Shown piece after piece: positions 8,538 through 63,359 of a DNA stretch of 64,000 bases. Origin of the DNA: Scilla litardierei. Its lineage: Eukaryota > Streptophyta > Magnoliopsida > Asparagales > Asparagaceae. A program made the translations under genes and the position numbers. Numbering within the stretch: the stretch's first letter is position 1; the number at the start of each line of letters is the position of its first letter. Where the stretch lies: assembly GCA_030789695.1 (NCBI GenBank), contig CM061133.1, positions 98,413,128-98,477,127 on the forward strand, written 5' to 3'. The notes under the pieces are model-generated. The model was not told the DNA's origin. It made no database searches and saw only the letters and a program-made list of their open reading frames with translations.

Positions 8538-11082
8538 TGTCACGACCCGCTTCCCTGAAATGGAGGCGAGACGTGAAAAGGTCCGCACGGGAGTGGAGCT
8601 GTGAAGCCCCAAACCTGATAAGCGTCCACAATACATAAACAGGTCCCTGTAACCACAACAGAATAACAATAATAACACAAGGCGAGACTGAAATAAAATT
8701 CCACATCTCACAAATTGTCCAACATCAAAATAAGTCCAACATCCAGAAAAGCCACCAGGCTAAAAGAAAAGAGTCTAAAGGCCCAGAACAAGGCCAACAA
8801 AGAAACGACATAACAAAATATAGGTGCTACGCACCGATAACAAAAAAACTGTCTAACAAAAGTAAAACACAACGAAGACACTAGGACTGGTCCCCAGTGT
8901 CCACGTACTCCCCGTCAAACACAAGCTCGGGCTCGGCGTCAGCAAACACCTCGTCCTCAACGAGGTACTCGGGCTCAGGATCTAACATGTGTCACCCAAA
9001 AGAGTAAAGGGGCACATGTCAGCAAGTCTAAAAGACTTGGATAAGGAAACTGAAAGTAAGGCAACTAGCAACCTAGTAGTTTAGTATGATGCATGGCATG
9101 GCAGTTATAACATGAGTGCACAATTTAAAACATGGCAAGACAGTTTGTACAAGAGAACAATCATCGGGACAAGACAAGACAAGACAAGACAAGACAAGAC
9201 AAGAGTAGCCACGCTACTATCAATCTCAATCAATTCACATTGTTGGTGTTTACGCCCTTCGCTGAATGGTAAACATTCAGACCGATCGGCACTAAACACG
9301 ATTCACATTTCACGGTTGTTTTGTAGATGTTTGCACCCTTCGCTGAATGGCTAGCATGTCAGTCCGATCGGCCCCAAACACTACCCCACCCCAAAGAGTT
9401 TACGCCTTACAACTGCAGTTGTTGATCAAACAGACTCCCAGTTGAATGGCCGCTTAACCCTCACCCCCTATACCCACACATAATGGAGCCAGGGTCCCCG
9501 CACAATGAACTCAGCTAGTGAGCCTGGGGTTGCCCCGCACATTGAGCTCGCATTCTTAAACATTTGGCGTAGGGGTGCACCTAGCCGGAAACACGCAATT
9601 CGGGCATTGGCTATCAACCAACACATGGCCCGCTTCTGGAACACGAGCCAGGAACACAAGCATTTGTAGCAAAGCTACGCAATCACATAAACACTTAAAG
9701 AATGCAATGACATGACATTTAATTTGCGTACCGTTAATGGAAAGTAAACATGACATGGTTATCGTGCAACATGCTAAATGTCGGAACTAGCTTCGTTGTC
9801 AAGCTAGTTCCTCAATTTGCGCCTAGGCGAGTATCATTTCGTCGCCTAGCCTCTTTTACGCCTACTATAAGAAAATGGCCTAAAACATGGCCTAAACCCT
9901 AAGTGGCAAGTTTCACTTGCCTAGCACCGGGGATGACGACCACTTCGTCACACGGATGCTAATCTACGGGGAAATCGCTGTTATGGGGGAAACAAACACC
10001 AAACACATGAAATTAATTAGGGTTTCACCAAAAGTATAAATAAGTTATAAAAACAACGGTAGATCGATTTCTTACCGAGAGAAGACGGAAGAAACACTCC
10101 GGGGAACCCTAGGATCAGATCTGGAAGCAAATGGAGAAGTTTGGGGACACTAGGGTTTTGGGGGATTTAGGGATTTTGATGGAGATTTGGGGAAGATGAG
10201 GGGTAGATGGAGTGAATGGATGGATTGGATGATGGATTTAGGGCTTGGAATGGAGAAATGGAGCTTGGAGGAAGATGGGGGCTGAAGGGGAAGGATTTTA
10301 GGGTTTTGGGTCGTGTTGGAGGAAGAAGAAACGTTTGGGTTGGGTTTAAATAGGCTAGGCTGGCGGCTGCCCAGAAATTAGGGTTTTAACACTGGTTAGT
10401 CGGTCAAAGAGCAACCACTGACCGACTAGTTTGACAACTAGTCGGTCAGTCGACCAACGCAGACCGACTAAGTGCAAACAGTAACTTTTGAACGAAAATA
10501 GGATTCTAGAGTTAGTCGGTCCATGAACAAATACTGACCGACTAGTTTAGCATCTAGTCGGTCGATGAACGTTCTTAGACCGACTAAGGGTAAACAGTAA
10601 CTGATACAAAAATAATATGATGAGTTAGTCGGTTCAAGAAGCATTGCTGACCGACTAGTTTGCAACCTAGTCGGTCAACCAACGTTCTTAGACCGACTAA
10701 CGATAAACAGTAACTCCTGAGAAATTTAGAAAGCTAACTAGTCGGTCCAAGAAGGATTGCCGACCGACTGGATCGTCATCTAGTCGGTCGGTGGCCCTTC
10801 TTACACCGGCTAATGAGCACAGAAAGTACCGATACGGAGCGCGGGGCCCCGGGATCGATTCCTAAGACTCCTAGGCTTGATCTAATAGTTAGATACGACC
10901 GTTAAGAAGTCCGTCACGAGTGACATACTTCGAAATCGACGATCCTAAGGAAGAAGCGAGAAAATACGACGAATCGATCGAAAATGAAATCTACGGAGAC
11001 GAAAACCACACAAGAGGAGAAAATCCACCAAAACATATATTATATTATATTAAATCCAGATACATGAAAAGCAGTCGTTACA
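8538..11082 (-). repeat. 3' LTR of chromovirus C (2545 bp)
   Basis: The LTR runs from TGTCACGACCC to GTCGTTACA. It includes an (ACAAG)n pentanucleotide run at about 9170-9206, the palindromic array at 10394-10815 and the TATA context at 10345-10352. Confidence 0.95.
10394..10815 (-). repeat. Palindromic AGTCGGTC/GACCGACTA array in left LTR C
   Basis: About five paired words, TAGTCGGTC ... GACCGACTA, occur at a period of about 80-90 bases, each followed by an AACAGTAAC-type word. In minus-strand sense it lies just upstream of the TATA box at 10345-10352. The same word recurs in copia B. Confidence 0.9.
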
Positions 11083-11096
11083 TCCTCCCCAACTTA
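11083..11096 (-). other. Polypurine tract of chromovirus C
   Basis: The minus strand reads TTGGGGAGGA immediately before the 3' LTR. It would prime plus-strand DNA synthesis. Confidence 0.8.
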
Positions 11097-11128
11097 AGAA
11101 AAATTCCGTCCTCTGAATTTCCAAAAAC

Positions 11129-12031
11129 TCACGAGTCCGGAAACAAAAGTGGGAAACGCTCTCGCATCTCATCCTCATTCTCCCAAGTAGACTCTCCAGG
11201 TGAACCGTGTCGCCACATCACCCTCACAAGATTGACAATCTTGTTCCGAAGCGATTTCTGACGCCTGTCCAGAATCTGCACTGGATGCTGATCATACGTC
11301 ATATCGGGGCGAACGGTAATCTCCAAAAAATCCACCGCATGAGACGGATCGCTAATGTATCGACGAAGCTGCGACACATGGAAAACATTGTGAACTCCTT
11401 CCAAAGATGGCGGCAAGGCCAAGCGATAAGCTACCTCGCCAACCCTCTCCAAAACGTCAAACGGTCCAATGTATCGCGGGCTCAACTTCCCTCGCTTCCC
11501 GAAACGAATCACACCGCGATTCGGGGAAATCTTCAAGAACACATGGTCGCCCGGCTGAAATTCCAAAGGACGACGTTTAGCATCCGCCCAATGCTTAAAA
11601 CGGTCCTGAGCAATCCTCAGCCTCTCCTGAATATTCCTGACGATATCCACGGCCTCCACGATCATCTCAGGTCCCAACAACTCCCGATCACCAACGTCAT
11701 CCCAACTCAATGGCGATCGACATTTCCTCCCATAAAGAGCGGCGAAAGGCGCCATGCCAATACTCGCCTGGAAGCTGTTGTTGTAGGAAAACTCCACCAA
11801 ATGCAGATGGTCCTCCCACAAACCCTTGAAATCCAACATGCACGCCCTCAGCATGTCCTCCAAAATCTGAATCGTCCTCTCGGACTGGCCATCCGTCTGC
11901 GGATGGTACGCCGTGCTGAAACTCAGACGTGTACCCAAACTCTTCTGCAAACTCTGCCAAAACTGAGATGTGAACCTCGTGTCTCTGTCCGACACGATAC
12001 TCACGGGGACTCCATGAAGTCGCACGACTTC
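11129..12031 (-). CDS. Chromovirus C integrase, catalytic C-terminal part plus chromodomain (exon 3)
   Basis: This is the third exon of the spliced gag-pol. It starts with [20 protein letters not shown], holding the second catalytic Asp. The catalytic Glu follows in [10 protein letters not shown]. The GPF/Y-type region ([19 protein letters not shown]) comes next, about residues 185-205. A C-terminal chromodomain ([10 protein letters not shown] ... [20 protein letters not shown]) fills about residues 255-300. Chromodomains steer integration to heterochromatin marked by histone methylation. The frame is open for about 300 codons to a stop at 11129. The exon begins directly after a candidate 3' splice site (12032). 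An open frame extends six codons upstream into the intron, but alignment to the usual gypsy sequence YxxEIVRLHG supports the splice. Confidence 0.9.
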
Positions 12032-12102
12032 CTGCACGATTCACGTTACATCATTATCCAAACTAGGAAAAGGACATAAAACGGAGAGTAAAAGAATTTT
12101 AC
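12032..12102 (-). other. Candidate spliceosomal intron 2 in chromovirus C integrase (71 bp)
   Basis: On the minus strand the exon ends RRYME (GAG), then GTAAAATTC ... GAATCGTGCAG, then EVVRLHG. It has GT-AG ends, a T-rich body and phase 0. Removing it yields [15 protein letters not shown], which aligns without gaps to the usual gypsy integrase. Read through, it shifts the frame and brings a stop. G has a 73-bp counterpart at the same codon boundary. Confidence 0.8.
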
Positions 12103-12627
12103 CTCCATATATCTCCTCGCTAGCGCCTCAGTGGACTGTCCCACTCGGAATGGAATAAAGTGTGCAGATTTGGTCAATCGATCTACGATCACCCAAATCG
12201 CGTCATTCTGCTTCGGACTCCGAGGTAGTCCAGTCACGAAATCCATAGTGATGTGTTGCCATTTCCACTCCGGAATCGGAAGCGGTTGTAGCAACCCGGC
12301 CGTACGCTGATGCTCCGCCTTCACTTGCTGGCAAACCAAGCACTTGGCTACACTCCGAGCCACGCTCCTCTTCATTCCATGCCACCAATAATTCAGACGA
12401 AGATCCTGGTACATCTTGGTGCCACCAGGATGCACAGAATACGGCGAACTGTGTGCCTCCACCATCAGCTCCTCTCTGATATCCCCAGCGGGCACACACA
12501 ACCTGGCTCCAAACCTCAGCGAGCCATCCTCATGAATCAAAAAGTCAGTCCGTAGACCGGCTTCCACCTGCTCCCGAATCTTCACCAGCTTCGGATCCTC
12601 GGCCTGGCCAGCCTTAATCCGATCCAC
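12103..12627 (-). CDS. Chromovirus C integrase, N-terminal zinc and core part (end of exon 2)
   Basis: This stretch carries the integrase N-terminal HHCC zinc domain (EAHSSPYSVHPGGTKMYQDL ... KCLVCQQVKAEH). It then has the first catalytic Asp in QHITMDFVTGLPRS, followed by VDRLTKSAHFIPF. It is in the same frame as the protease-RT ORF upstream but separated from it by an in-frame TAG (12637-12639). It ends at the 5' splice site after RRYME. Integrase inserts element cDNA into chromosomes. Confidence 0.88.
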
Positions 12628-12636
12628 GATCGTCGA

Positions 12637-14522
12637 CTATACCTGCATGTACATCAACGACGAAGCCTCCCCAGGAAGAACAATCTCCACGCCAGACTCG
12701 CAAAAATCCTGCTGCAATCTCCACTGCGAGGTCAAAATCATCACCGCTGGAAGCCTACTCAAAGCATCCGGAACCACATTCACCTTGCCAGGGTGAAACT
12801 GCAAATCAATATCATAATCCGCCATAAGCTCCAACCATCATCGCTGTCGCATGTTGAGCTCCTTCTGAGTGAAAATGTACTTCAAGCTTTTGTGATCGGT
12901 GAAAATCTTCACTTTCTCACTCAGCAGGAAGTGCCTCCAAATCTTAAGAGCAAACACGACGGCAGCCAACTCCAAATCATGTGTCGGGTAATTCTTCTCA
13001 TGAACCTTAAGCTGACGAGACGCATACGCCACAACGTGTCCGTGCTGATGCAGCACGCAACCGAGACCCTTGCCAGAAGCATCGCAAAAGATCTCAAATC
13101 CACTGCTGCAATCAGGCACAACAAGAATAGGGGAACTCGTCAACCTCTCCTTCAGAACACCAAAAGCACCCTCACAATCACCCGACCAAGCATAAGCAAC
13201 ATCCTTCCGCGTCAACCTGGTCATCGACTCAGCAATACGAGAAAAATCCTTAATGAAACGTCGATAGTAACCAGCCAGTCCAAGAAAACTCCGAATCTCA
13301 GACGCTGACGACGGAACAGGCCACTCCCTGATGGCCCGAATCTTCTCAGGATCCACTGAAATACCATCTCCAGTCACCACATGCCCGAGAAAAGCAACTC
13401 GATCCAGCCAAAACTCGCACTTCGAAAACTTAGCATACAACCGATGCTTCCTCAAAATCTCCAACACCGTCCTTAAGTGCGAGGCATGCTCTTCCTCCGA
13501 CTTCGAATAGATCAGAATGTCTTCAATAAAGATAACGACAAACTTATCCAAAAATTCGTAGAAAATCAGGTTCATCAGATTCATGAAAACTGCGGGCGCG
13601 TTAGTTACGCCGAAAGGCATAACCACAAACTCATAGTGTCCATACTTCGTCCTGAACGCTGTCTTCGGAACATCTCCCTTCTTCACCTTCAACTGATGGT
13701 AACCACTCCTCAAATCCAATTTAGAAAACACCCTCGAACCTCCAAGCTGATCAAAAATATCATCAATGCGAGGCAACAGGTATTTATTCTTAATGGTTAC
13801 CGCATTCAACTCCCGATAGTCCACGTACATGCGACGCGAACCATCCTTCTTCTTAACCAGCAACACCGGTGCTCCCCACGGAGACACACTAGGATTAATA
13901 TAACCCTTCTGCAAAAGCTCATCCAACTGCTTCCGCAACTCTTCCAACTCTGCAGGTGCCATACGATACGGCGCCTTCGAAATCGGCTGCGCACCTGGAA
14001 CAAGATCGATAGAAAATTCCAAAGCCCGATCAGGCGGCAAACCAGACATCTCCTCGGGGAAGACGTCGCCAAAATCTCGCACCACAGCTGGCCACTCCAG
14101 CTCCATCTGCATAGCCACAGCCTCCACCGGCCTGGCCCGAAATCTGACAGGACCAAGCGAACTGCTACCACGACTGAACTCAAATACTGGATGTCTGGGA
14201 ATCTCGAACACCACCTTCTTTCTCCGACAGTCGATCGTAGCATAGACGCTCGCAAGCCAGTCCATCCCAAGAACTGCATCATAGTTGATGAGGTCGTGGA
14301 CAATGAAATCAGCAAAAAGCTCATGTCCACAGACCACCAACGAGCAAGAATTGCAACCACGATGCACCGAGACCACACCATTCCCTGTAACGATATTCCA
14401 ACTCTTCGGAAGAGGGGACGTCGACAAGGAATGCCTCTCCACGAAGCTCCGAGAAATAATGCACATCGATGCACCAGAGTCAAAGAGGACTCGTGCAGGA
14501 AATGTGCACACCAACACCAAAC
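12637..14522 (-). pseudogene. Chromovirus C protease, reverse transcriptase and RNase H (exon 2)
   Basis: The exon begins at a 3' splice site (14523/14522) with [20 protein letters not shown], the aspartic protease active site. RT follows: [15 protein letters not shown], then [20 protein letters not shown], then RSGYHQL. The catalytic motif reads FIEDIL where FIDDIL is expected, so the first Asp is Glu (codon at 13522-13524), which should cripple polymerase activity. RNase H covers [18 protein letters not shown] through [10 protein letters not shown]. Two stops interrupt the frame: TGA at 12838-12840, inside RQR(stop)WLEL, and TAG at 12637-12639. Both look like single-base changes. Apart from these the frame is continuous into integrase. 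Confidence 0.92.
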
Positions 14523-14635
14523 CTAACAAGCAATTAACAATCAAACCCTAGTCTAGCAAACAACCATGTTCAAGCAAACAACACAATCAAACAATCAAAA
14601 CCAGCTCGGAAAATGACAGCTAGATTGAGGATTAC
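14523..14635 (-). other. Candidate spliceosomal intron 1 at the gag/protease boundary of chromovirus C (113 bp)
   Basis: On the minus strand GTTATCGCAG is followed by GTAATCC ... TTGCTTGTTAG, then GTTTGGTGTTGG. It has GT-AG ends, phase 1 and a T-rich body with stops. Splicing joins VIAG to [16 protein letters not shown] and moves the gag frame exactly into the pol frame. The gag stop (14595-14597) lies inside the intron. F has an intron at the matching site. Confidence 0.78.
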
Positions 14636-15767
14636 CTGCGATAACCTCATCCACAGCCTCGTTCTCCACAGCGGTCATCAGAAAAGCCTGCCTCCTCGGC
14701 GGAACAGCCTGCCGAAAAGCCTGCCCCTGCGGAACAAGAGCCGCTCCACGCCCAGCAGGAACAGACGCTCGCTGCTGCAACGGCTGAGCTGCAACAGGAG
14801 CCCTCCGCAGCGGACCCGCATGCCGACAATCCTTCGCGATATGAGAAGCATCACCGCAAACCAGGCACTGGCCCAAAAACTTCTGACACTGATCCTTGAT
14901 GTGGCCAGGCTTACCGCAGAAATGGCAAGTCTTCAGAATAGGCCCTCCTGGCCTCTTAAACTGAGCGGACTGATTAGGCCTGAATCCAGGTCTAACCACA
15001 GCTCTCGCCTGTTCCACAGGCCTCTTCCCAGCACCAATAACAGACCCCCTCCTTTGGTTCACGAGCAGCTCCTGCCTCTTGGTAGCGACCAGAACCTTCT
15101 GATAAGATTCCCGGTCAGAAGAGGTCACAAAACTCTGGAGCTCCGAAGCAAGCCACTGCAGGAACCTGTGAGCTCTCTCCTCAGCGTCCTGCACCATCTT
15201 TAGTGCAAACCGACTCAGCCTCATGAACTCCTGGTGGTACATGTCCACCGACGAGTTCCCCTGCTTCAGATCGATAAAACGCTGCAGCATCTCCTCCTTG
15301 GCAGCCTTCGGGAAGAACTCACCCTCAAATCTGGCTTTGAAGGTAGCCCAAGCTATCGGCTCCACCAACAACTTCTCTTCCGCATCCCACCAATTCCTGG
15401 CGTTATCCTTGAGTTGCCTCTTCGCCAAATCAACCCATCCAGCCGGGGTGATCTTGGCCATCTTCAGGTTGTCCTCGATATTCCTCATCCACTCATCGAC
15501 AGCCAGAGGACCCTCAGAACCATCAAAATATGCGGGACCCAGCTCCCGGAATTGCTTCGCTCCTGGCTCAGAGCGAGGAACATCCGGAAGAGCCCGGGCA
15601 GCTCGAGCAGGTGGAGCATTCTGGACTTGCAAAAGCACGCCCTACTGCACTTGCATCATCTGCAACATCATCCGCATCATCTCACCGCTGGTGGGTTCCC
15701 GCTCAGGCTCCTCATCATGAGGGAGCGCACCACTGCCCCCACCACGGGTGAAACGCCTTCCTGCCAT
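14595..15767 (-). pseudogene. Chromovirus C gag
   Basis: The gag polyprotein forms the particle and binds RNA. It starts at ATG 15765-15767 (MAGRRFTRGGGSGALPHDEE). An in-frame TAG at 15642-15644, codon 42, probably a CAG-to-TAG change, interrupts it. The open part has the plant gypsy gag domain: DEWMRNIEDNLKMAKITPAG, then ARNWWDAEEKL, then FEGEFFPKAAKEEMLQRFIDL. Two zinc knuckles follow, CHFCGKPGHIKDQC and CLVCGDASHIAKDC. A basic, Gln/Pro-rich tail precedes the splice donor at 14635. Unspliced RNA adds twelve residues (NPQSSCHFPSWF) and stops at 14595, giving Gag alone. Confidence 0.9.
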
Positions 15768-15910
15768 CTAATGACACGGAAAACAAATCAGATTAGACTC
15801 ATAGCTTATGACTCGGACGTCGAACTTAATTTATTGGACATTCAAATATTATTATTGCTATTCCAAAAATCGCAGTAACAGAAGGACCTGCATGGGCCAC
15901 CACTAAAACC
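15768..15910 (-). other. Leader and candidate primer-binding site of chromovirus C
   Basis: The 143-base leader lies between gag and the 5' LTR. The bases against the LTR (15884-15910, minus strand) read GGTTTTA then GTGGTGGCCCATGCAGGTCC. They do not match initiator tRNA-Met, and I could not assign a tRNA. The 20-base word recurs at the same place in F and G. Confidence 0.6.
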
Positions 15911-17737
15911 TGTCACGACCCGCTTCCCTGAAATGGAGGCGAGACGTGAAAAGGTCCGCCCGGGAGTGGAGCTGTGAAGCCCCAAACCCGATAAGCGTCC
16001 ACAATACATAAACAGGTCCCTGTAACCACAACAGAATAACAATAATAACACAAGGCGAGACTGAAATAAAATTCCACATCTCACAAATTGTCCAACATCA
16101 AAATAAGTCCAACATCCAGAAAAGCCACCAGGCTAAAAGAAAAGAGTCTAAAGGCCCAGAACAAGGCCAACAAAGAAATGACATAACAAAATATAGGTGC
16201 TACGCACCGATAACAAAACAACTGTCTAACAAAAGTAAAACACAACGAAGACACTAGGACTGGTCCCCAGTGTCCACGTACTCCCCGTCAAACACAAGCT
16301 CGGGCTTGGCGTCAGCAAACACCTCGTCCTCAACGAGGTACTCGGGCTCAGGATCTAACATGTGTCACCCAAAAGAGTAAAGGGGCACATGTCAGCAAGT
16401 CTAAAAGACTTGGGCAAGGAAACTGAAAGTAAGGCAACTAGCAACCTAGCAGTTTAGTATGATGCATGGCATGGCAGTTATAACATGAGTGCACAATTTA
16501 AAACATGGCAAGACAGTTTGTACAAGAGAACAATCATCGGGACAAGACAAGACAAGACAAGATAAGACAAGACAAGAGTAGCCACGCTACTATCAATCTC
16601 AATCAATTCACATTGTTGGTGTTTACGCCCTTCACTGAATGGTAAACATTCAGACCGATCGGCACTAAACACGATTCACATTTCACGGTTGTTTTGTAGA
16701 TGTTTGCGCCCTTCGCTGAATGGCTAGCATGTCAGTCCGATCGGCCCCAAACATTACCCCACCCCAAAGAGTTTACGCCTTACAACTGCAGTTGTTGATC
16801 AAACAGACTCCCAGTTGAATGGCCGCTTAACCCTCACCCCCTATACCCACACGTAATGGAGCCAGGGTCCCCGCACAATGAACTCAGCTAGTGAGCCTGG
16901 GGTTGCCCCGCACATTGAGCTCGCATTCTTAAACATTTGGCGTAGGGGTGCACCTAGCCGGAAACACGCAATTCGGGCATTGGCTATCAACCAACACATG
17001 GCCTGCTTCTGGAACACGAGCTAGGAACACAAGCATTTGTAGCAAAGCTACGCAATCACATAAACACTTAAAGAATGCAATGACATGACATTTAATTTGC
17101 GTACCGTTAATGGAAAGTAAACATGACATGGTTATCGTGCAACATGCTAAATGTCGGAACTAGCTTCGTTGTCAAGCTAGTTCCTCAATTTGCGCCTAGG
17201 CGAGTATCATTTCGTCACCTAGCCTCTTTTACGCCTACTATAAGAAAATGGCCTAAAACATGGCCTAAACCCTAAGTGGCAAGTTTCACTTGCCTAGCAC
17301 CGGGGATGACGACCACTTCGTCACACGGATGCTAATCTACGGGGAAATCGCTGTTATGGGGGAAACAAACACCAAACACATGAAATTAATTAGGGTTTCA
17401 CCAAAATTATAAATAAGTTATAAAAACAACGGTAGATCGATTTCTTACCGAGAGAAGACGGAAGAAACACTCCGGGGAACCCTAGGATCAGATCTGGAAG
17501 CAAATGGAGAAGTTTGGGGAAACTAGGGTTTTGGGGGATTTGGGGATTTTGATGGGTTTTGATGGGTTTTGATGGAGATTTGGGGAAGATGAGGGGTAGA
17601 TGGAGTGAATGGATGGATTGGATGATGGATTTAGGGCTTGGAATGGAGAAATGGAGCTTGGAGGAAGATGGGGGCTGAAGGGGAAGGATTTTAGGGTTTT
17701 GGGTCGTGTTGGAGGAAGAAGAAACGTTTGGGTTGGG

Positions 17738-17745
17738 TTTAAATA
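17738..17745 (-). promoter_or_regulatory. Candidate TATA box of chromovirus C 5' LTR
   Basis: Minus-strand TATTTAAA sits in the context CCTATTTAAACCC, just downstream of the palindromic array. The R/U5 start would follow about 30 bases later. Confidence 0.65.
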
Positions 17746-17787
17746 GGCTAGGCTGGCGGCTGCCCAGAAATTAGGGTTTTAACACTG

Positions 17788-18205
17788 GTTAGTCGGTCAA
17801 AGAGCAACCACTGACCGACTAGTTTGACAACTAGTCGGTCGGTCGACCAACGCAGACCGACTAAGTGCAAACAGTAACTTCTGAACGAAAATAGGATTCT
17901 AGAGTTAGTCGGTCCATGAACAAATACTGACCGACTAGTTTAGCATCTAGTCGATCGATGAACGTTCTTAGACCGACTAAGGGTAAACAGTAACTGATAC
18001 AAAAATAATATGATGAGTTAGTCGGTTCAAGAAGCATTGCTGACCGACTAGTTTGCAACCTAGTCGGTCAACCAACGTTCTTAGACCGACTAACGATAAA
18101 CAGTAACTCCTGAGAAATTTAGAAAGCTAACTAGTCGGTCCAAGAAGGATTGCCGACCGACTGGATCGTCATCTAGTCGGTCGGTGGCCCTTCTTACACC
18201 GGCTA
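17788..18205 (-). repeat. Palindromic AGTCGGTC/GACCGACTA array in right LTR C
   Basis: It matches the left array unit for unit. One substitution (AGTCGATCG at about 17948) breaks a word. Confidence 0.9.
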
Positions 18206-18475
18206 ATGAGCACAGAAAGTACCGATACGGAGCGCGGGGCCCCGGGATCGATTCCTAAGACTCCTAGGCTTGATCTAATAGTTAGATACGACCGTTAAGA
18301 AGTCCGTCATGAGTGACATACTTCGAAATCGACGATCCTAAGGAAGAAGCGAGAAAATACGACGAATCGATCGAAAATGAAATCTACGGAGACGAAAACC
18401 ACACAAGATGAGAAAATCCACCAAAACATATATTATATTATATTAAATCCAGATACATGAAAAGCAGTCGTTACA

Positions 18476-37636: not shown

Positions 37637-37650
37637 CAAATGTCCGGCAT

Positions 37651-38741
37651 ATAATCGGTGCTGTCTTAGGGTCTCCAACACAATTCTCAAATGTCCGGCA
37701 TGCTCATCTTCATTCTTTGAATATACCAAGATGTCATCAATAAAGACCACCACAAACTTATCCAAGTAGTCAAAGAAGACTTGATTCATTAGTCTCATGA
37801 AAGTGGCCGGCGCATTGGTCACTCCAAAAGGCATCACAAGGAATTCATAATGGCCATAACGGGTCCTGAAAGCGGTTTTCGAAACATCAGACCCCCTAAC
37901 CTTAACTTGATGATAACCACTAGGCAGGTCCAACTTTGAATACACTCGGGATCCACCCAGCTGGTCAAAGATATCATCTATACGAGGGAGAGGATATTTA
38001 TCCTTCACTGTTACCTTGTTCAACTCCCTATAGTCAATGCACATCCTTCGAGACCCATCCTTCTTATTTACTAGAAGCACTGGTGCTCCCCATGGGGACA
38101 CACTAGGGCGTATCAGCCCTCGTTCAGATAAGTCCGTCAACTGATTGCGAAGCTCATCTAACTCGGGCGGGGCCATACGATATGGTGCTTTCGCAATCGG
38201 CTGTGTGCCAGGTACCAAGTCTATGGTGAACTCTAAGGATCTATCTGGGGGCAGTCCGTATATGTCATCAGGGAACACGTCAGGAAAATCTCGGACAACC
38301 CTTGGTAAGACTAAATCTGCCTCCATAGTTAGCACCTGGGCTTCTACTGGCGCTGCCCTAAACTTCACGGGTTCAAGGGTGTTACTTCCACTACAAAGCT
38401 CAAACTCTGTGTGACCCAGAATCTGAAAGACTACACTCCTTAGTCTATAGTCAATAGTAGCATAAAACATTCCCAGCCAATCCATCCTGAATACGGCCTC
38501 GAAACTAGGAATCTTAATAATCAAAAAGTCTGCATATAACCTCTCCCACCAATCTCCACAGGGCAGTTCCGATAACCCGAGGTGCTACATATCACACAGT
38601 TCCCCGTATGAACATTCCAACTAGCAACGAAGGAATCTACCGTTATCACATGCTTGGTCACAAATTTTTCAGACAGGAAACAATGAGATGCCTCAGAATC
38701 AAAAAGCGATAAGGCGGGAAAGGAGGCTATTCTAACGGTGC
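37651..38741 (-). pseudogene. Chromovirus F protease and reverse transcriptase, truncated
   Basis: Exon 2 begins after the 3' splice site at 38742 with VRIASFPALSLFDSEASHCF. The protease motif DSGA is DSEA, which should inactivate it. A frame break near 38540 follows GGRGYMQTF. The RT part is open: [20 protein letters not shown], then [20 protein letters not shown], then an intact FIDDILVYS. It ends after QHRLY at the rearrangement junction, where a 19-base stretch is duplicated, so thumb, RNase H and integrase are absent. It is annotated separately from G because it is a second physical copy. Confidence 0.9.
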
Positions 38742-38770
38742 CTAAAAGACATAACACATAAGGGCATCTA
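38742..38770 (-). other. Chromovirus F intron 1, 3' part
   Basis: The minus strand ends TATGTCTTTTAG before the protease exon. E is inserted just upstream, and ATCTA (38766-38770) is its target duplication. The 5' part of the intron lies at 46659-46717. G keeps the same acceptor at 63141. Confidence 0.75.
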
Positions 38771-38887
38771 TGTTGGATATGGACGACACGAATACACCCA
38801 TGAGGGGATGTATGAGGGTATACGGACCTCAGATGTCGCGTGCACGAAGGCGTGCACGAAGGGAACCTTTTCTCGTGTGAAAAGGAC

Positions 38888-38963
38888 CACTCGATAAGTG
38901 GAAAAAGCCACTCGATAAGTGGAAAAAGTCACTTGATAAGTGCATAAAGGCACTTGATAAGTG
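38888..38963 (+). repeat. Palindromic CACTCGATAAGTG array in LTR E
   Basis: Four 13-base near-palindromes at a period of about 20-21 bases (two CACTCGATAAGTG, two CACTTGATAAGTG), about 85 bases upstream of the TATA box. The right LTR repeats it at about 46223-46298 with one mutated copy. Confidence 0.88.
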
Positions 38964-39047
38964 AATGAAGAAGAGGATAAATGAATGCACTTTTATAGGC
39001 TAATAAGCTTATAATTGGTTATTTCCTACAATAACCACCCCTAAAGC

Positions 39048-39056
39048 CTATAAATA
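39048..39056 (+). promoter_or_regulatory. Candidate TATA box of copia E 5' LTR
   Basis: CTATAAATA occurs in the context GCCTATAAATAGGACC. The same context occurs at 46383-46391. Confidence 0.75.
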
Positions 39057-39319
39057 GGACCCAAGGGTAAGGCATTCATTCCATCCCATTCATGCCATAA
39101 GTTTGCAAAAGGCATCTTATGTTCTTCTTCTCCCTTCCATTAAAATCCTCTTCTAGTTAGAGATATAGGCAGTGAAACTCTGCTTCGATCCTCTGTGACG
39201 AAGTATCGACCGTTGTGGCGAATCCGAGGGCGAAGTTCCGAGATTACGGTGCCGCGTACGCAAGCGTAAGTCTCAACTTCATTTATCGATCCTAACGCTG
39301 TTTTGATAGGATCCTACAT

Positions 39320-39332
39320 TGGTATCAGAGCC
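39320..39332 (+). other. Primer-binding site of copia E (tRNA-iMet)
   Basis: TGGTATCAGAGCC lies one base after the LTR end at 39318. Confidence 0.94.
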
Positions 39333-39917
39333 ATACGGATTCGCTCCGGTCAGACCGTCGCCCCGTCGAAACTATGAACGATTCGTTGTCTTTTTCACGA
39401 ATGGGTATCCTACCATTATGGATATGATAGAAACGCTTCGTGACGGAGAGAACACAACGGATGTTCTTTTCACGTTAGGGTCTCCGACCATTACGGATAT
39501 GGCAGGAACTCTCCGTGACGGGAAGAACCGACCGTTCATATCGTCAAACTCGCTCTCTTCATGGATGCTGAGTCTCCATTCATAGGGAATGGGTGCTCTC
39601 TTCATGTGGAGCGCGTAGTTTACGAATTTTTGAAGTGGGTTATTTTTTTGGCACACGGCCATTGGAGGATAACTACTTCCTCGACGAACGGGTGCTTCAC
39701 CGGAGAAGAAGATGGTGGTTATTCCCATCAGGGAAGATGAATTTTGGTGCATGAAATCTATAGCCAAATGGGCAATGGAGGCAATGCATTCCTCCTCCCC
39801 ACGCGGAGGGGGTTGGCTACGGCCAATGACGACGAACACCACCACGGCCACCCCCTCCGGTGGGAGTGTGCGGCCAACCCTGTGAATGGGGGAGGCCGGC
39901 CATGGCCAAAGGGCCAT

Positions 39918-40345
39918 GGCCGGCCTCTGGCCGAGGCCAGGCCAGGCCAGGGGGCCTGGCCGGCCTCTGGCCGAGGCCAGGCCAGGCCAGGGGGCCTCGC
40001 CGGCCTCTGGCCGAGGCCAGGCCAGGCCAGGGGGCCAGGCCGGCCTCTGGCCGAGGCCAGGCCAGGCCAGTGTGGCCAGGCCGGCCTCTGGCCGAGGCCA
40101 GGCCGGCCTCTGGCCGAGGCCAGGCCGGCCTCTGGCCGAGGCCAGGCCGGCCTCTGGCCGAGGCCAGGCCGGCCTCTGGCCGAGGCCAGGCCGGGCCAGG
40201 GGGCCTGGCCGGCCTCTGGCCGAGGCCAGGCCTGGCCAGGGGGCCTGGCCGGCCTCTGGCCCAGGCCAGGCCAGGCCAGGGGGCCTGGCCGGCCTCAGGC
40301 CGAGGCCAGGCCAGGCCAGTGGCCTGGCCGGCCCTGGCAGTGGCC
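39918..40345. repeat. GC-rich 40-bp/22-bp compound minisatellite
   Basis: Units of about 40 bp (GGCCTCTGGCCGAGGCCAGG followed by CCAGGCCAGGGGGCCTGGCC) alternate with a block of 22-bp units (GGCCTCTGGCCGAGGCCAGG plus CC). The words are palindromic and rich in GGCC, so both strands stay open in several frames. Confidence 0.9.
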
Positions 40346-40818
40346 AGGGCTGCCACTGGCCGGCCCTAGGCCAGCCTCGGCCAGGGCAGAGGCCCTGGCC
40401 GGGGGTGCAGGGTGCCAGAACTCTTGGTCGGCATTGGTCGACCAATTCGGGTTTTTTGGTCGACCAATTCATTCGGAGGCCTTGTCAGTAATTTCGGCCC
40501 CGTCCATCTGCAAGGCTAGCCCATACGGGGCCGACGGCAGTCATTAGCGGCAAAATTCTCCTATAAGCGGGGAAGCGCCTGGATCCATACGGGAAGCCGG
40601 CGATAATTGCTTGCAGAAAAATCTCCACCAAAAGGGGGATCCGACCTTGGCACGGCAACGGCTTAAACCCGGCAATGGCCAGGGATTGCCGAATATTTCA
40701 CTAGTATCATAAGGGTACTATGCTGAAATATATTTTTGAAAAATAAGTTTTTCATATGTTTTGAAAAATATGTTTTCAAAAACGCTTTTCCGCTGCGAAG
40801 TACTATAAGAGTACGATT

Positions 40819-41190
40819 ATTTGATAAAGTGATGGGGAAATATTGAAAGTTGCTCTAGATGGTGATTGAAAACGTAGTGACTTTTCCGATTCTAGAGTAA
40901 CATCTTCAATATTTTTCGAAAGTAACTTATCAAATTATGAATATCATTCCAAGTGGGAGTTGATTTTAGAACTATCCATATGGGATATTCTATTATCATT
41001 TCAAGTGGGAATTATATCTGAAAAGTACGTTTTCAAACTCGTTTTTTCCGCTGCTTGTACTATAAGAGTACTATTGTTTGATAAGTGATGGGGGAATATT
41101 GAAGGTTGTTCTAGATGGTGATTGGAATCGTAGAGACCTTTTCGATTCTAGAACAACACCTTCAATATTTTTCGAAAGTAACTTATCAAA
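40819..41190 (+). repeat. Two copies of an imperfect ~115-nt hairpin in the E leader
   Basis: Copy 1 is 40819-40935 and copy 2 is 41077-41190. The outer arms pair TTTGATAA with TTATCAAA. The inner arms pair AATATTGAA...CTAGA with TCTAG...TTCAATATT. One stem pair differs between copies in both arms (CTCTAGA/TCTAGAG against TTCTAGA/TCTAGAA), so pairing is kept. Confidence 0.75.
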
Positions 41191-41344
41191 TATAATATAA
41201 TTCCAAGTGGGATTTGAATTTTTAGAACTATCCAAATGGGATATTCTATTATCATTTCAAGTGGGAGTTATATTTTAAGAATTTTTATGCAATGTTTTGA
41301 TCAAACCTTCGGTTTTGTGTCTTTTGCAACATTTTAAAAGTAAA

Positions 41345-42240
41345 ATGTCTTCCGCTTCAAAGAATATCGTCGCTGAGTTAAACAGAGGTGAAAAACTCAA
41401 CGACGATAATTACAAACTTTGGTCCATCAAGATACAATACGTTTTAGAGGAGCAAGAAGTGCTCGAAACTCTAAAGAACGTAATGATTGAACCCGAGTTG
41501 GGCACTACGGCCCAACACAGACGAGACAAGGAAGATTTTGATGATTGGTCTCGGAAGAACAAGATAGCACGTATTACCTTTATTAAGCAGTATGGCTGAT
41601 GACATAATGCGCATCTTCCGAGAACATGACCTAGCCATGGACATATGGTCCAAGCTAGAAGAGAAGTTCGGTGGCACATCGGTGTCCAAACTTCACGCCT
41701 TAACTATAAGGTTCGATTCATATAAGAAATGTCCAGATCATTCCATGGGGAAACATCTGCGACATATGGCGAATCTTATCTCGGAATTAAAGGACGCAGG
41801 TCATGTGCTCACTGATGAGCAACAAATCCAAGCAGTCATACGTTCCCTACCAAATGGGTGGGACCAAATGAAGATGCATCTCACTCACAATGAGAGAATC
41901 AAGAACTTCATCGACGTTTCAAAGCACCTCGAATTAGAGGAAGAGCGGCTTGCGGCTGCCAAGCCAAGTGCAGAAGTGCACATGGTTGCTAGTTCCTCAC
42001 ATGGGGGAAAGAAACGGAAAGATCGTCGAAGTTCACAAATGAACGTAAAAAGCAACCTGAGTCTACCAAGAAACCCAAACATAGGGGTGGGCACAAGAAA
42101 TGGCACAAGAAGAAAGACTTGAAGAGGATCAAGTGCTTCAAGTGCAACAAGTTCGGTCACTATGCTCGTTCGTGTACGAGTGGAAGTGACGAGGTAACTT
42201 GTAATACTAGTTACATATATGTTTCTAGTTCAATATTTCT
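41345..42240 (+). pseudogene. Copia E gag
   Basis: Gag starts at ATG 41345 (MSSASKNIVAELNRGEKLND), with DNYKLWSIKIQYVLEEQEVL. A frameshift near 41585 moves to the frame of MADDIMRIFREHDLAMDIWS, and another near 42050 leads to the zinc knuckle CFKCNKFGHYARSC (about 42135-42177), which is intact. UBN2 features include KYHALTIRFDSYK-like sequence (here LHALTIRFDSYKKCPDHSMG) and IQAVIRSLPNGWDQMKMHLT. A stop in the linker near 42246 precedes protease. The protein would form the element's particle; it is broken here. Confidence 0.87.
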
Positions 42241-42249
42241 TGTGTAATC

Positions 42250-43236
42250 TAATCCATTTTGGATAATTGATTCAGGTGCCACCGACCACATAGCAAGGGA
42301 CAGACGGTCCTTCGTGGAGTATCACCGGATACCCCAAGGAACGAAGTGGATCTATGTAGGAAACAAACACGTGTTGAAGTGAAAGGCGTTGGGACTTGCA
42401 AGCTAGTCTTGGACAACGGTCGCACTCTCCTACTTCATGATGTCCTCTTCGCTCCAGATATTCGAAGGAATATTATATCTGTGGTCGTGTTGATGGGTCT
42501 TGGTTATAGCTGGTTCTTTCAAAATTGTAAAGTGGACTTGTTTTGTAATAATTCCTTTATTGGTACTGGGTTTGTATTTAAAGGATTTATTGTAATGAGT
42601 ACAATGTATGATTCCTCGTGTAATGAAAATTTCATTATTACAAATTCTAAGACTTATGAGTCTGATGTGATTTGTTGGTACGCAAGGCTTGGTCATATTG
42701 GACCAACGCGTATGGATAGACTTGCCAAACATGGCCTTCTATCCAATGTTTCAAAGGTTGAAATGTCGACCTACGAACATTGCCTAGTGGGGAAATCTTT
42801 TCACAAGCCGTTTGGAACCGGCACAAAGGCCAAGGTTCCATTACAGCTTATCCATTCGGACATATGTAGTCCGATGAATGTCAAGACAAGACGCGGGAAG
42901 TCCTATTTCATCACTTTTATTGATGATTTCAACCGATTCGGACATATCTATTTGATATCCCATAAAAGTGAAGCATTGGCTTGCTTTAAAAACTATATGA
43001 GTTTAGTGGAGAATCAATTAGATCACAAGATTAAGGTCTTGCGAACCGATAGGGGCGGTGAATATCAATCAACAAGTTTTAAGGAACTTTGTGATGAAAA
43101 AGGCATAGTACATCAGGTAACTATGCCTTATACTCCTCAACAAAACGGTGTTGCAGAAAGGAGAAATAGGACTTTAATGGAAATGGTCCGTTCAATGATG
43201 GCGCAAGCTAACTTGCCAATCATTTTTTTGGGGTGA
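42250..43236 (+). pseudogene. Copia E protease, GAG-pre-integrase and integrase
   Basis: The protease active site WIIDSGATDHIAR lies at about 42262-42300; a frame break near 42350 leads into a long open frame. GAG-pre-integrase has WYARLGHIG and the CLVGKSF zinc site. Integrase has HSDICSP (first Asp, about 42855), TDRGGEYQS (second Asp) and QQNGVAERRNRT (Glu). The frame closes at 43236 because of one extra T in a T run (43223-43230); removing it restores ...WGDALLTAAF. The integrase DDE set is complete, so the lesions are mostly frameshifts. Confidence 0.88.
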
Positions 43237-45084: not shown

Positions 45085-46105
45085 GTTGTACCAATATAAA
45101 TTCCCATGTCTGTAAATGATCAAATTTAATAAAAGAATAAGTTCTTTTTCAAACATTTCATATGAATTTCTTGAGAAATGTTTGTGTACATTTTTGAAAT
45201 CTCAGCTATATTTTCTAGTATGTTGGACAGATTGAGGTTGGCTCTCTCACATGAGCAACCGCCTTATTCTATCAGACGGATAGAATAGAGATGAGACCAG
45301 TTTAAAGTCAAAATCATCAGACGGATGATTTAGAGTCATGACTTAAACAAAATGGTCGCATGAAAGATCTGCATCATATGGATGCTTACAGAAGATCTAA
45401 GAGGATTTTTGAAATCCTATCTGTCTAAATGCGGGATGTGAGTCCAAAGGATTATTTGAGTAGAAAAAGGGACTCAAAGTCAGACATTGTGGTGTCTGAT
45501 CATCATCCTTACAACATCATTGAGACATACACTCCCTGGGAAAGGAGCGATGTTGTAATACGTATTCATACTACGTATGCATTTTTGACCATTGGGTTAG
45601 AATAGTAAATAAGTTTACTATTATGTGAGACCCAAAGACCACATGGGTCTTAATTCATTACCCTTATGGACTCTAATTGGTTCCTTAAGATTTGACTGGG
45701 TGATTGCTATCTTAGCATGTTGCTTATGGACTATGGTTAATTCGGTCCGGCGGGGCATGTTAGAAAAGCGAGTCAAGTCAAGATCAAAAGGATCGCAAGA
45801 AGAGGAAGATTAATTTCATATTCACATTTTGACTTTAGAGATTCAAAGCTGGCCAGCCAATTGTAAATCCAGATGGGATTCAATTGTTGAATGTAAAGTA
45901 TAAGAAATGTGAAGAAATAATCTATGGTAAAGCATGTGTTGATCTACTCAACTTTGCACCTCGAGGGGTGTTGTGTATCTCTAACAAGTGCACAACAGTG
46001 GACTCTATGCGCATGACGGTCACACGGCCTATTTCTCGGTATGACAAACAGAAGAGTTAAAGGAAAAGATGTTTCCTTATAATCCCCTCAAGTGTGAGTG
46101 GGAGA
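45085..46105 (+). other. 3' non-coding region and polypurine tract of copia E
   Basis: About 1 kb without genes. It has small inverted repeats (ATAGTAAAT...TTTACTAT near 45602, ACGTATTCATACTACGT near 45559). GTGAGTGGGAGA at about 46094-46105 is the polypurine tract before the right LTR. Confidence 0.7.
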
Positions 46106-46653
46106 TGTTGGATATGGACGACACGAATACACCCATGAGGGGATGTATGAGGGTATACGGACCTCAGATGTCGCGTGCACGAAGGCGTGCACGAAGGGAA
46201 CCTTTTCTCGTGTGAAAAGGACCACTCGATAAGTGGAAAAAGCCACTCGATAAGTGGAAAAAGTCACTTTATAAGTGCATAAAGGCACTTGATAAGTGAA
46301 TGAAGAAGAGGATAAATAAATGCGCTTTTATAGGCTAATAAGCTTATAATTGGTTATTTCCTACAATAACCACCCCTAAAGCCTATAAATAGGACCCAAG
46401 GGTAAGGCATTCATTCCATCCCATTCATGCCATAAGTTTGCAAAAGGCATCTTATGTTCTTCTTCTCCCTTCCATTAAAATCCTCTTCTAGTTAGAGATT
46501 TAGGCAGTGAAACTCTGCTTCGATCCTCTGTGACGGAGTATCGACCGTTGTGGCGAATCCGAGGGCGAAGTTCCGAGATTACGGTGCCGCGTACGCAAGC
46601 GTAAGTCTCAACTTCATTTATCGATCATAACGCTATTTTGACAGGATCCTACA
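46106..46653 (+). repeat. 3' LTR of copia E (548 bp)
   Basis: Same length as the left LTR with only a few substitutions, followed by target duplication ATCTA (46654-46658). Confidence 0.95.
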
Positions 46654-46658
46654 ATCTA

Positions 46659-46717
46659 AACATCTATACAATGAATAAGGAACTACGCATAACTGACATA
46701 AAGGAGTAAAAACTCAC
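46659..46717 (-). other. Chromovirus F intron 1, 5' part
   Basis: On the minus strand GTTGTTACTG is followed by GTGAGTTTTTACTCC, a strong plant donor. With 38742-38770 the intron before E arrived was 88 bp. Phase 1, as in element C. Confidence 0.75.
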
Positions 46718-50619: not shown

Positions 50620-51514
50620 CTATGCAAATAAATATGGGTACTTCTCTCGCATCTCGTCTTCACTTTCCCATGTGGACTCTCCCGGAGACTCCCGATGCCA
50701 CATGACCCTCACAAGATTAATGACTTTCCTCCGCTGCATTTTCTGTCTCCAATCTAAGATAGCCACCGGTTGCTGTTCGTAGGTCATGTCTGGGCGTACT
50801 TCAATTTCTGAGAAATCCACAACATGACTGGGATCTCCTATGTATCTTCTAAGCTGTGATACATGGAACACGTCATGAATACCTTCAAGTGACGGAGGTA
50901 GCACCAGCCGATAAGCCACTTCACCAACACACGCTGAGATTTCGAAGGGACCAATGTATCTAGCGCTCAGTTTTCCCCGTCGACCGAAACATATAGTACC
51001 GTGTCGGTGATATCTTTAGAAATACGAAATCACCAGGCTAAAATTCCAAAGGACGCCTCTTAGTATCCGCCCAGTGTTTGTAACGATCTTGAGCAACATG
51101 AAGATTTTCCCGAACCGTCCGTACCACATCAACCGCTTCTACTACCATGTCAGGTCCTAGAAGTTCATGATCCCCAACGTCATCCCAACTTAAAGGTGAT
51201 CGGCACTTCCTCCCATATAAAGCCGCAAATGGTGCCATACCAATACTTGCTTGATAACTATTGTTGTAGGCAAATTCCACCAGGTGCAAATGATCTTCCC
51301 AGGACCCCTTAAATTCTAGCATGCATGCCCTCAACATGTTTTCTAGAATTTGTATGGTGCGCTCAGATTGCCCGTCTGTCTGGGGATGATACGCAGTACT
51401 GAAGCTGAGATGAGTTCCCAGACTAGCTTGTAAGCTTCGCCAAAAATGAGATGTAAATCTGGTGTCCCGATCAGAAACTATACATACAGGAACACCATGA
51501 AGTCTCACGATCTC
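50620..51514 (-). pseudogene. Chromovirus G integrase C-terminal half with chromodomain (exon 3)
   Basis: The exon starts after the 3' splice site at 51515 with [20 protein letters not shown] (second catalytic Asp), then [10 protein letters not shown] (Glu), then [21 protein letters not shown] stop at 51038 after RRPLEF, and a further frame break near 50935, interrupt it. The chromodomain end is open (PVAILDWRQKMQRRKVINLV, then [20 protein letters not shown]), stopping at 50620. It aligns with the C integrase throughout. Confidence 0.88.
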
Positions 51515-51587
51515 CTGGGCACAAAGTTGGCATCAGAACATGTTAAAGAGACAACTAGCAATAACATGAATATGGTGAGCATCATAC
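51515..51587 (-). other. Candidate spliceosomal intron 2 in chromovirus G integrase (73 bp)
   Basis: On the minus strand RRYME (GAG) is followed by GTATGATGCTC ... TTTGTGCCCAG, then EIVRLHG. It has GT-AG ends, phase 0 and the same codon boundary as in C, but the sequence inside is essentially unrelated and two bases longer. Splicing gives RRYMEEIVRLHGVP. Confidence 0.8.
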
Positions 51588-52180
51588 CTCCATATACCTT
51601 CTGGCCAAAACTTCCGTAGACTGACCCACCCGGAAAGGGATAAAATGTGCTGATTTGGTCAATCGGTCAACGATCACCCAAATCGCATCATGACCTCTGG
51701 GAGTTCGGGGTAGACCAGTGACAAAATCCATCATTATATGCTGCCATTTCCATTCAGGAATGGGGAGGGGTTGTAACAAACCTGTAACCCTTTGGTGTTC
51801 GGCTTTCACTTGCTGAAAAATGATACACGAGGCGATACTCCTGGCCACACTACGTTTCATACCATGCCACCAATAATGCTGTCTCATGCACGGTACAATT
51901 TTGTCCCTCCAGGGTGGATAGAATACGGCGAGCTGTGGGCTTCCTTCAGCAGTTCCTCTCGTACATCACCGGATGACACACAGATTCTTTTCCTAAACCT
52001 CAATGAACCATCATCATGAATGCAAAAATCTGTCCAAAGCCCAGCTTCGACCTGTTCTCGTATCCTTCTTAGCTTTGCATCTCCCAGTTGTGCCGCTTTA
52101 ATACGGTCCACTAAATCAGACCGAACTTGCAACCCAAACATAACTATCTGCTCACCCGGAAGTATGACTTCAACTTCCAT
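51588..52180 (-). pseudogene. Chromovirus G integrase N-terminal half (end of exon 2)
   Basis: Contains LVDRIKAAQLGDAKLRRIRE and the zinc domain (EAHSSPYSIHPGGTKLY). A frameshift near 51888 follows, then QHYWWHGMKRSVARSIASC. The Cys pair reads C-I-I-F where C-x-x-C is expected, so the second zinc Cys is lost. HIMMDFVTGLPRT carries the first catalytic Asp. It ends at the donor 51587. Confidence 0.87.
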
Positions 52181-53901
52181 CTATCGCAGCGCCCAGCGGA
52201 GTTGTGGTTGGAAGGTCAATTGCAACACAGCGGGGAGTCGACTAAGAGCGTCTGGAACTACATTCACCTTCCCAGGGTGAAGATCAATGTCATACTCCGC
52301 CATCAGCTCTAGCCACCTACGCTGTCTCATATTGAGTTCCTGCTGGGTAAAGACATACTTCAAGCTCTTATGATCAGTGTATATCTTCACACGCTCTCCA
52401 AGCAGATAGTGCCTCCATAACTTCAAGGCAAAGATTACTGCCGCTAACTCCAAATCATTGGTAGGGTAAGTCTGTTCATGCACTTTCAGCAATCGGGAGG
52501 CATAATCCACCACACGGCCATGTTGATGAAGCACACAGCCGAGGCCTCTACCAGATGCATCACAGAAGACCTCAAACCCCCCTTACTGGTCAGGAACAAT
52601 CAAAACCGAAGCAGTCGTCAATCTCTGCTTCAAGTCCTCAAACGCATGCTGACAGGCATCAAACCATACATATGCACTCTCCCTTTTGGTAAGATGTGTC
52701 AGTGGAGCGACAATCTTGGAGAAGTCTCGAATAAACTTCCGGTAATAACCCGCAAAGCCCAAGAAGCTCCTAATCTCAGTAACCGTTCTCGGAACAGGAC
52801 ACTTCTCTACTACCGCAACCTTTTCTGGATCAACCGATATTCCTTCTCCAGAAACTACATGCCCAAGGAAAGCAACCTTATACAACCAAAATTGACACTT
52901 GCTATACTTGGTATATAATCGGTGCTGTCTTAGGGTCTCCAACACAATTCTCAAATGTTCGGCATGCTCATCTTCATTCTTTGAATATACCAAGATGTCA
53001 TCAATAAAGACCACCACAAACTTATCCAAGTAGTCAAAGAAGACTTGATTCATTAGTCTCATGAAAGTGGCCGGCGCATTGGTCACTCCAAAAGGCATCA
53101 CAAGGAATTCATAATGGCCATAACGGGTCCTGAAAGCGGTTTTCGAAACATCAGACCCCCTAACCTTAACTTGATGATAACCACTACGCAGGTCCAACTT
53201 TGAATACACTCGGGATCCACCCAGCTGGTCAAAGATATCATCTATACGAGGGAGAGGATATTTATCCTTCACTGTTACCTTGTTCAACTCCCTATAGTCA
53301 ATGCACATCCTTCGAGACCCATCCTTCTTATTTACTAGAAGCACTGGTGCTCCCCACGGGGACACACTAGGGCGTATCAGCCCTCGTTCAGATAAATCTG
53401 TCAACTGATTGCGAAGCTCATCTAACTCGGGTGGGGCCATACGATATGGTGCTTTCGTAATCGGCTGTGTGCCAGGTACCAAGTCTATGGTGAACTCTAA
53501 GGATCTATCTGGGGGCAGTCCGTATATGTCATTAGGGAACACGTCAGGAAAATCTCGGACAACCCTTGGTAAGGCTAAATCTGACTCCATAGTTAGCACC
53601 TGGGCTTCTACTGGTGCTGCCCTAAACTTCACGGGTTCAAGGGTGTTACTTCCACTACAAATCTTAAACTCTGTGTGACCCGGAATCTGAAAGACTACCC
53701 TCCTTAGTCTACAGTCAATAGTAGCATAAAACATTCCCAGCCAATCCATCCCGAATACGGCCTTGAAACTAGGAATGTTAATAATCAAAAAGTCTGCATA
53801 TAACTCTCTCCCACCAATCTCCACAGAGCAGTTCCGATAACCCGAGGTGCTACATATCACACCGTTCCATGTATGAACATTCCAACTAGCGACGAAGGAA
53901 T
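52181..53901 (-). pseudogene. Chromovirus G protease (part), reverse transcriptase and RNase H
   Basis: Protease sequence resumes right of H at 63036. Here [20 protein letters not shown] and [14 protein letters not shown] are its end. RT is open and complete: [20 protein letters not shown], then [20 protein letters not shown], then FIDDILVYS intact, then [24 protein letters not shown] after VLIVPDQ (52583-52585) precedes RNase H ([20 protein letters not shown], then [13 protein letters not shown]). Two codons seem lost at [11 protein letters not shown], and a stop lies near 52181. Confidence 0.9.
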
Positions 53902-63035: not shown

Positions 63036-63359
63036 CTACCCTTATCGCATGCTTGGTCACAAATTCTTCAGACAGGAAATAATGGGATGCCCCAGAATCA
63101 AAAAGCGATAAGGCGAGAAAGGAGGCTATTCTAACGGTGCCTAAAAGACATAACACATAAGGTCATCTAAACATCTATACAATGACCTTCAATCATGCCT
63201 TCAATCTGCCAGTCCCAGATATCTCATTCATGCCTTCAATCTGTAACGAGAGAGCAAGAGAATTCAGATTAGTATCATAAGCTGAAGTATCAGAGCAATG
63301 TCTGTGTCATCCTTACGCATGTCGCAGTGTAGTGGACCTGCATGGGCCACCACAAAACC
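63036..63359 (-). pseudogene. Chromovirus G protease start, intron 1 acceptor and gag-deleted leader
   Basis: The right side of H continues G. Protease active site FDSGASHYFLSEEF is intact (about 63050-63105), then VRIASFLA precedes the 3' splice site TTTTAG (ending 63141). Intron sequence as in F follows to about 63185. Then a deletion removes all of gag: the sequence jumps to the area around the gag ATG, with TCATGCCTTCAATCTG present twice (63193-63208 and 63228-63243). The leader and the candidate primer site (63333-63359) follow. Confidence 0.85.

Follow-up and report, generated by a model that had tools for sequence, protein, structure and literature searches.

Two putative spliceosomal introns, one of them within the integrase core, in a chromovirus-type retrotransposon lineage of Scilla litardierei

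Judging from genomic sequence, a lineage of plant chromoviruses in Scilla litardierei very probably carries two host-spliced U2-type GT-AG introns, one in phase 1 at the gag/protease junction (intron 1) and one in phase 0 within the integrase core (intron 2). Both are seen in a window of 64,000 nucleotides, by which we mean the whole stretch of DNA analysed, and copies of both were sought throughout the surrounding host assembly (3.68 Gb, 7,266 contigs). Elements that are copied through RNA are expected to lose their introns; here one persists in the catalytic core of the integrase, at thousands of places. If this reading is true, a single genome holds a natural experiment comprising thousands of copies with and without an intron, in which two questions become testable: which RNA, spliced or unspliced, enters packaging and copying, and whether splicing serves plant retroelements to set Gag against Pol. 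Also affected would be genome annotation, which could call such elements defective where it expects an unbroken integrase frame. The features of the window that bear on this reading are as follows.

8538..18475, minus strand: element C, an LTR retrotransposon with two LTRs and a target duplication
11129..12031, minus strand: second half of the C integrase, with an SH3-like domain and a weak chromodomain match
12032..12102, minus strand: putative intron 2 of element C, 71 nt, phase 0, GT-AG, 42% T, in the integrase core
12046..12636, minus strand: first half of the C integrase, with a zinc-binding domain and, by motif, the first catalytic Asp
12838..14547, minus strand: C protease, reverse transcriptase and RNase H frame, ending in this copy at the nonsense codon 12838-12840
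14523..14635, minus strand: putative intron 1 of element C, 113 nt, phase 1, GT-AG, 46% T, at the gag/protease junction
14595..15641, minus strand: C gag frame, whose unspliced reading ends at a stop inside intron 1
37646-38769 and 46654-47737, minus strand: pieces of element F, a second copy of the family of element G
38742..38763, minus strand: 3' end of putative intron 1, element F
46703..46717, minus strand: 5' end of putative intron 1, element F, the remainder interrupted by a nested element
50626..53901, minus strand: element G pol, into whose 5' side another element (53901-63030) is nested
51515..51587, minus strand: putative intron 2 of element G, 73 nt, at the same codon boundary as in C, with a sequence unlike that of C
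63141..63162, minus strand: 3' end of putative intron 1, element G, followed by a protease exon piece

Element C is bounded by LTRs of about 2.5 kb each (8538-11082 and 15911-18475; 98.3% identical) and flanked by a 5-bp target duplication, GACTA. A Pfam scan matched protease, reverse transcriptase, RNase H, zinc-binding and SH3-like domains, and the order protease, reverse transcriptase, RNase H, integrase between LTRs with a target duplication is that of a chromovirus. The Pfam Chromo profile matched the C terminus of the integrase with an E-value of 1.8e-4 and 21.8 bits, the curated cut-off being 25.1, and we take the long LTRs to be only suggestive of the Tekay/Del clade. Also below its curated cut-off was the match to the Pfam integrase core, which covered only the second half of the profile (positions 60-102) and fell on the piece downstream of the insert; upstream of the insert the zinc-binding domain was the sole Pfam match. 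The gag of element C, which matches that of element F, has its likely ATG at 15767, and just upstream of this start the letters CATTAG run directly into ATGG, a possible 3' splice site at the start codon. This copy holds at least three nonsense codons, at 15642-15644, where gag is broken, at 12838-12840, and at 12637-12639, directly before the frame of the first integrase half, and is therefore broken in itself. Element G is a diverged relative of C, and F and G are 97.4% identical across 992 bases.

On the minus strand, the integrase insert of C runs from 12102 to 12032 (GTAAAA...GTGCAG) and that of G from 51587 to 51515 (GTATGA...GCCCAG). As a preliminary description of this DNA had pointed out, both occupy one codon boundary, after RRYME and before E(V/I)VRLHG, in phase 0, and an insert that is retained stops translation, in C at the codon 12046-12048, where the open reading frame 12046-12636 ends. 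By the placement of the motifs MDFVTG and SDRD, to which we assign catalytic-Asp roles by assumption, the insert is between the first and the second catalytic Asp. The same description had the flanks conserved and the inserts unrelated, and this was confirmed quantitatively: protein identity between C and G is 86% over the 80 codons before the insert and 85% over the 158 codons after it, and the two inserts align no better than shuffled sequences, 410 of 1000 shuffles with the splice ends kept scoring at least as high as the real pair. Nucleotide changes between C and G fall mostly on third positions (46 of 62 before the insert, 89 of 125 after), with pS at saturated values of 0.85 before and 0.90 after, and pN at 0.09 on both sides. 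Given that 85-86% of the protein is kept while synonymous sites are saturated, both flanks have been selected as protein; and since constraint on the protein is no weaker beyond the insert than ahead of it, working copies must bypass the insert. Removal of the insert had also been said to restore a gap-free integrase. In agreement with this, the Ty3 integrase (PDB 7q5b) aligns with both pieces, the first alignment stopping 11 residues short of the insert, and the two pieces meet without a gap once extrapolated over these unaligned residues. The T content of the three window introns, 40-46% as compared with 23-30% in the exon flanks, is in line with the T-rich introns of plants described in PMC3735527.

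Across the host genome, a 351-base query over the C site returned 3,773 candidates; all 40 of those scored align over the query, one being short by 1 base, and the insert was present in each of 30 fetched C-site copies and near-identical among them. Searches with the same exon letters identified 13,219 places with a GT-AG insert of 58-88 nt and 2,553 places with the exon letters joined exactly, without the insert (reversed-pattern control 0 in both cases), i.e. a split-to-joined ratio of about 5 to 1 by these two integrase patterns, which are exact patterns over several families and provide no census. Although GT and AG were set by the pattern, it imposed neither the GTAA or GTGA with which all 65 printed inserts start nor the GCAG with which 56 of the 65 end. 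Insert length lay between 66 and 74 nt in all of the 100 first-listed places, where 58-88 nt was allowed (71 nt in 47 places, 72 nt in 27); these lengths fall into the three classes modulo 3 as 48, 34 and 18 and are hence not tied to codons, and a single one of the 65 printed inserts is readable straight through. Single-linkage clustering grouped 63 of the 65 with the insert of C and left two that are unlike C and unlike each other; counting that of G, which is unlike all printed inserts, at least four unlike sequences occupy the intron-2 site. Neither a stop nor an indel interrupts the downstream exon in 18 of 29 bearers, in 12 of 20 joined copies that are C-like, and in one of nine diverged joined copies. 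The preliminary description had proposed the alignment of many copies as a check, and what emerges is a GT-AG insert at a fixed site, of drifting sequence, in thousands of copies. Fixed position and phase of a GT-AG insert, conserved protein on either side, relatives that read straight through, a T-rich drifting body and precise absence are all found here, as they are in spliceosomal introns.

Phylogenetic comparison of copies with and without the insert suggested how the joined copies may have arisen. Among 30 sampled joined loci, identity to C upstream of the site is 91-98% in 20 and under 90% in 10. In trees of 50 rows (29 bearers and 21 joined copies), bearers and joined copies are mixed, with at least 10 changes on the downstream exon and at least six on the upstream exon; the bearers in these trees stem from a biased sample, namely the 30 copies nearest C, loci with an exon match of less than 80% of length were dropped (L005 and L060 for the downstream exon), and diverged rows and G were left out of the final two trees. 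A single clade of all bearers was rejected by the downstream-exon tree (p 0.024) but not by the tree of the upstream exon (p 0.216), and eight sites polymorphic in both classes identify shared backgrounds. Since it is unlikely that a single, near-identical insert was acquired so many times (at least 6 to 10), the C family is better explained by repeated exact loss, or by fewer losses followed by recombination; template-switch recombination could mimic repeated loss. From the existence of joined copies, intron 2 seems dispensable for being copied.

The joined copies might owe their origin to deletion between short repeats at the insert ends, at the DNA level or during reverse transcription, and not to spliced RNA, an origin we consider improbable. 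Short repeats that could yield an exact removal do exist: AGG (3 nt) at intron 2 of both C and G, and AGGT (4 nt) at intron 1 of C. Deletion would also suit the loss of intron 2 from copies that keep intron 1: by coordinates on one contig (C1), of 20 C-like copies that lack intron 2, at least 6 retain the intron-1 5' splice site. Intron 2 can accordingly be lost with intron 1 kept, as partial splicing would also give, and its loss is therefore not simply by way of fully spliced RNA. Against deletion, a search for an alternative microhomology product, in which a 4-nt repeat would remove 47 nt, found 0 places, as compared with 2,553 exact joins over all families (20 of the 30 sampled being C-like); this was the one end point scored of the 18 repeats of at least 4 nt in or within 30 nt of the C insert, and it leaves the deletion reading weakened, not closed. 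Another alternative deletion at the C insert, between copies of a 6-nt repeat, is described by the pattern AGATATATGGAGTYCCYGTGAG.

To much the same degree, it is improbable that intron 2 is real but was gained repeatedly at a proto-splice site, with the joined copies ancestral and not the result of loss. The exon flank, GAG followed by GA, fits the notion of a proto-splice site, the inserts of C and G have no sequence in common, and joined copies also occur in diverged families (10 of the 30 sampled loci). These diverged loci were, however, picked by the joined pattern and so do not tell the usual state of their families, and repeated gain is opposed by the C family itself, in which the same near-identical insert recurs in 30 of 30 copies with joined copies among them on shared backgrounds, at a cost of at least 6-10 changes.

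The preliminary description had pictured a single intron and missed a second insert, at the gag/protease junction, which occurs both in C (14523-14635) and in the F/G family. In C, the gag frame meets a stop at 14595-14597 inside this insert, before the protease, and at the corresponding place the gag end of F and the protease start of F and G show GT and AG, in the same phase 1. Among 20 fetched intron-2 bearers, 19 align at intron 1 (L078 being without a match), and GT and AG are intact in all 19, with short indels in the intron body. The intron-1 5' splice site with its exon letters was identified at 8,886 places and the exact intron-1 join at 18 (control 0 for each), numbers that do not form a rate as the two patterns differ in strictness; the pattern GTTAGGTKTGRTKTTGGTKTGCACATT would give a better-matched baseline for the loss of intron 1. 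This loss seems much less common than that of intron 2 when the 18 joins are set against 2,553, again by patterns of unequal strictness.

Retroelements commonly have gag and pol in separate frames and bridge them by frameshifting or readthrough, and the gag/protease insert might be a recoding or stop-separated gag-pol junction of this kind and not an intron. We think this distinctly unlikely, given the exact joins, for which the control gave none, and the phase-1 position shared with the F/G family; also difficult to reconcile with recoding are a GT and an AG that remain invariant in 19 of 19 aligned copies despite indels in the body between them. For the inserts in general, an origin as chance lesions or small insertions in dead copies is scarcely credible and is rejected: both window elements are indeed damaged (C by its nonsense codons, G and F by nested elements), but the integrase inserts fall on one and the same codon boundary in two families whose synonymous sites are saturated, recur at 13,219 places (control 0) with a tight length in the 100 listed, are borne by about five places for each that is joined, and precede an intact downstream exon in 18 of 29 bearers. 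Intact relatives that code straight through the site had been named beforehand as grounds for regarding both inserts as chance lesions; such relatives do exist (the 2,553 joined places, Ty3, and chromoviruses of Beta vulgaris), but that verdict does not follow from them.

The two introns are linked in the genome. Of 100 intron-2 bearers on contig C1, 48 show an intron-1 5' splice site 2.0-3.4 kb upstream, as compared with 2, 1 and 0 in slid controls, and the spacing from intron 1 to intron 2 in the linked bearers is nearly always close to 2.54 or 2.61 kb. Comparison of coordinates within C1 showed no copy without both introns, and the sole intron-1 join of this contig, at 69.99 Mb, lies outside the compared stretch with no listed intron-2 join within reach. 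On the best reading of these sequence patterns, both introns would be old in this chromovirus-like group.

These observations can be accommodated in a mechanism in which intron-bearing RNA would be the usual template for reverse transcription, so that the introns persist, and part of the RNA would be spliced by the host to give the polyprotein. Unspliced RNA translated from the gag start would stop inside intron 1 and yield Gag only, and splicing would thereby set the ratio of Gag to Gag-Pol. RNA spliced at intron 1 only would encode a Pol cut inside the integrase, whole integrase being expected only from RNA spliced at both introns. Spliced RNA may occasionally be packaged and copied, giving rise to intronless copies, often with respect to intron 2 and seemingly rarely with respect to intron 1; rare loss of intron 1 would fit a need for this intron in setting Gag against Pol. 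The preliminary description had concluded that unspliced RNA is what is reverse transcribed. For the most part this may stand, but the existence of exactly joined copies within the same family suggests that spliced RNA is copied too. The least certain step of the model is the retention of intron 2, whose persistence over a long time may reflect simple inheritance through unspliced templates. In its full form, which we hold tentatively and with somewhat less than even confidence, the model would have this chromovirus lineage long using its two introns as a switch, the intron-bearing RNA serving both as genome and as mRNA for Gag, and the spliced RNA as mRNA for Gag-Pol; integrase would come only from fully spliced RNA, and spliced RNA would leak into reverse transcription frequently in the case of the integrase intron but rarely in that of the gag intron.

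Intron-bearing LTR retrotransposons are already known, and the integrase-core and gag/protease positions in these chromovirus-type elements differ from those described for the elements compared. One such element, the rice centromeric CRR, is a chromovirus, and unlike it the elements considered here possess a short intron inside the integrase. CRR is described as a Ty3/gypsy element with spliced transcripts, in which splicing removes rt and creates two ORFs (PMC3735527). Ogre, of the Tat lineage of non-chromovirus Ty3/gypsy elements, similarly keeps an intron in a plant element, one that is removed from only some of the transcripts, which allows translation of the complete polyprotein (PMC6317226), splicing being what we infer for the present elements; the Ogre intron separates GAG-PROT from RT-RH-INT, unlike the introns described here, which lie before the protease and inside the integrase core. 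Among Ty1/copia elements, facultative introns of BARE1 and EVADE are described that divide Gag from Pol expression (PMC3735527, PMC12786077). In BARE1, splicing knocks out Pol and makes a Gag-only RNA (PMC3735527), unlike element C, in which it is the unspliced frame that stops after gag, inside intron 1, so that its intron is not a facultative one of the BARE1 type. In the present lineage, exact joins number thousands for intron 2.

Other chromoviruses appear to lack such interruptions: a single continuous gag-pol frame is described for chromoviruses of Beta vulgaris in PMC3605345, and one long ORF for LORE1 of Lotus in PMC2832683. Given these continuous frames, the introns mark a lineage and not chromoviruses generally. 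Unlike element C, Cer1 of C. elegans resides in an animal and depends on an export protein of its own, and no integrase intron is known in it. For this Ty3/gypsy element, unspliced genomic RNA has to be exported past the host's retention of intron-containing RNA (PMC10309623). Penelope-like elements are likewise reported, in PMC3846280, to disperse intron-containing sequence; they differ in not being of the LTR type, and antisense templates are discussed there for their intron retention. A limited search of open-licence literature found no chromovirus integrase intron, consistent with the preliminary description, to which none was known, and a term look-up in a survey of plant centromeric elements (PMC3059260) returned no words beginning with intron or splic. 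Among viral contigs and bacterial and archaeal genomes, pattern stretches were the only candidate relatives, none of them confirmed.

Further insertions and repeats were identified around F and G. Nested in G on the plus strand (53901-63030) is an LTR element whose 1.56-kb LTRs share 97.9% identity and which holds a gag frame recognised by Pfam (55516-57696). A direct repeat surrounds G (47875-48672 and 63204-64000; 96.6%), from which F and G may share one LTR in a tandem arrangement, and the gag of G is seemingly missing between intron 1 and this repeat. A second plus-strand element, at 38770-46653, possesses 549-bp LTRs (98.5% identical), is nested inside intron 1 of F, and is copia-like as judged from ORF reading; it includes at 39838-40401 a G+C-rich array with a 40-nt unit spacing (10 overlapping copies).
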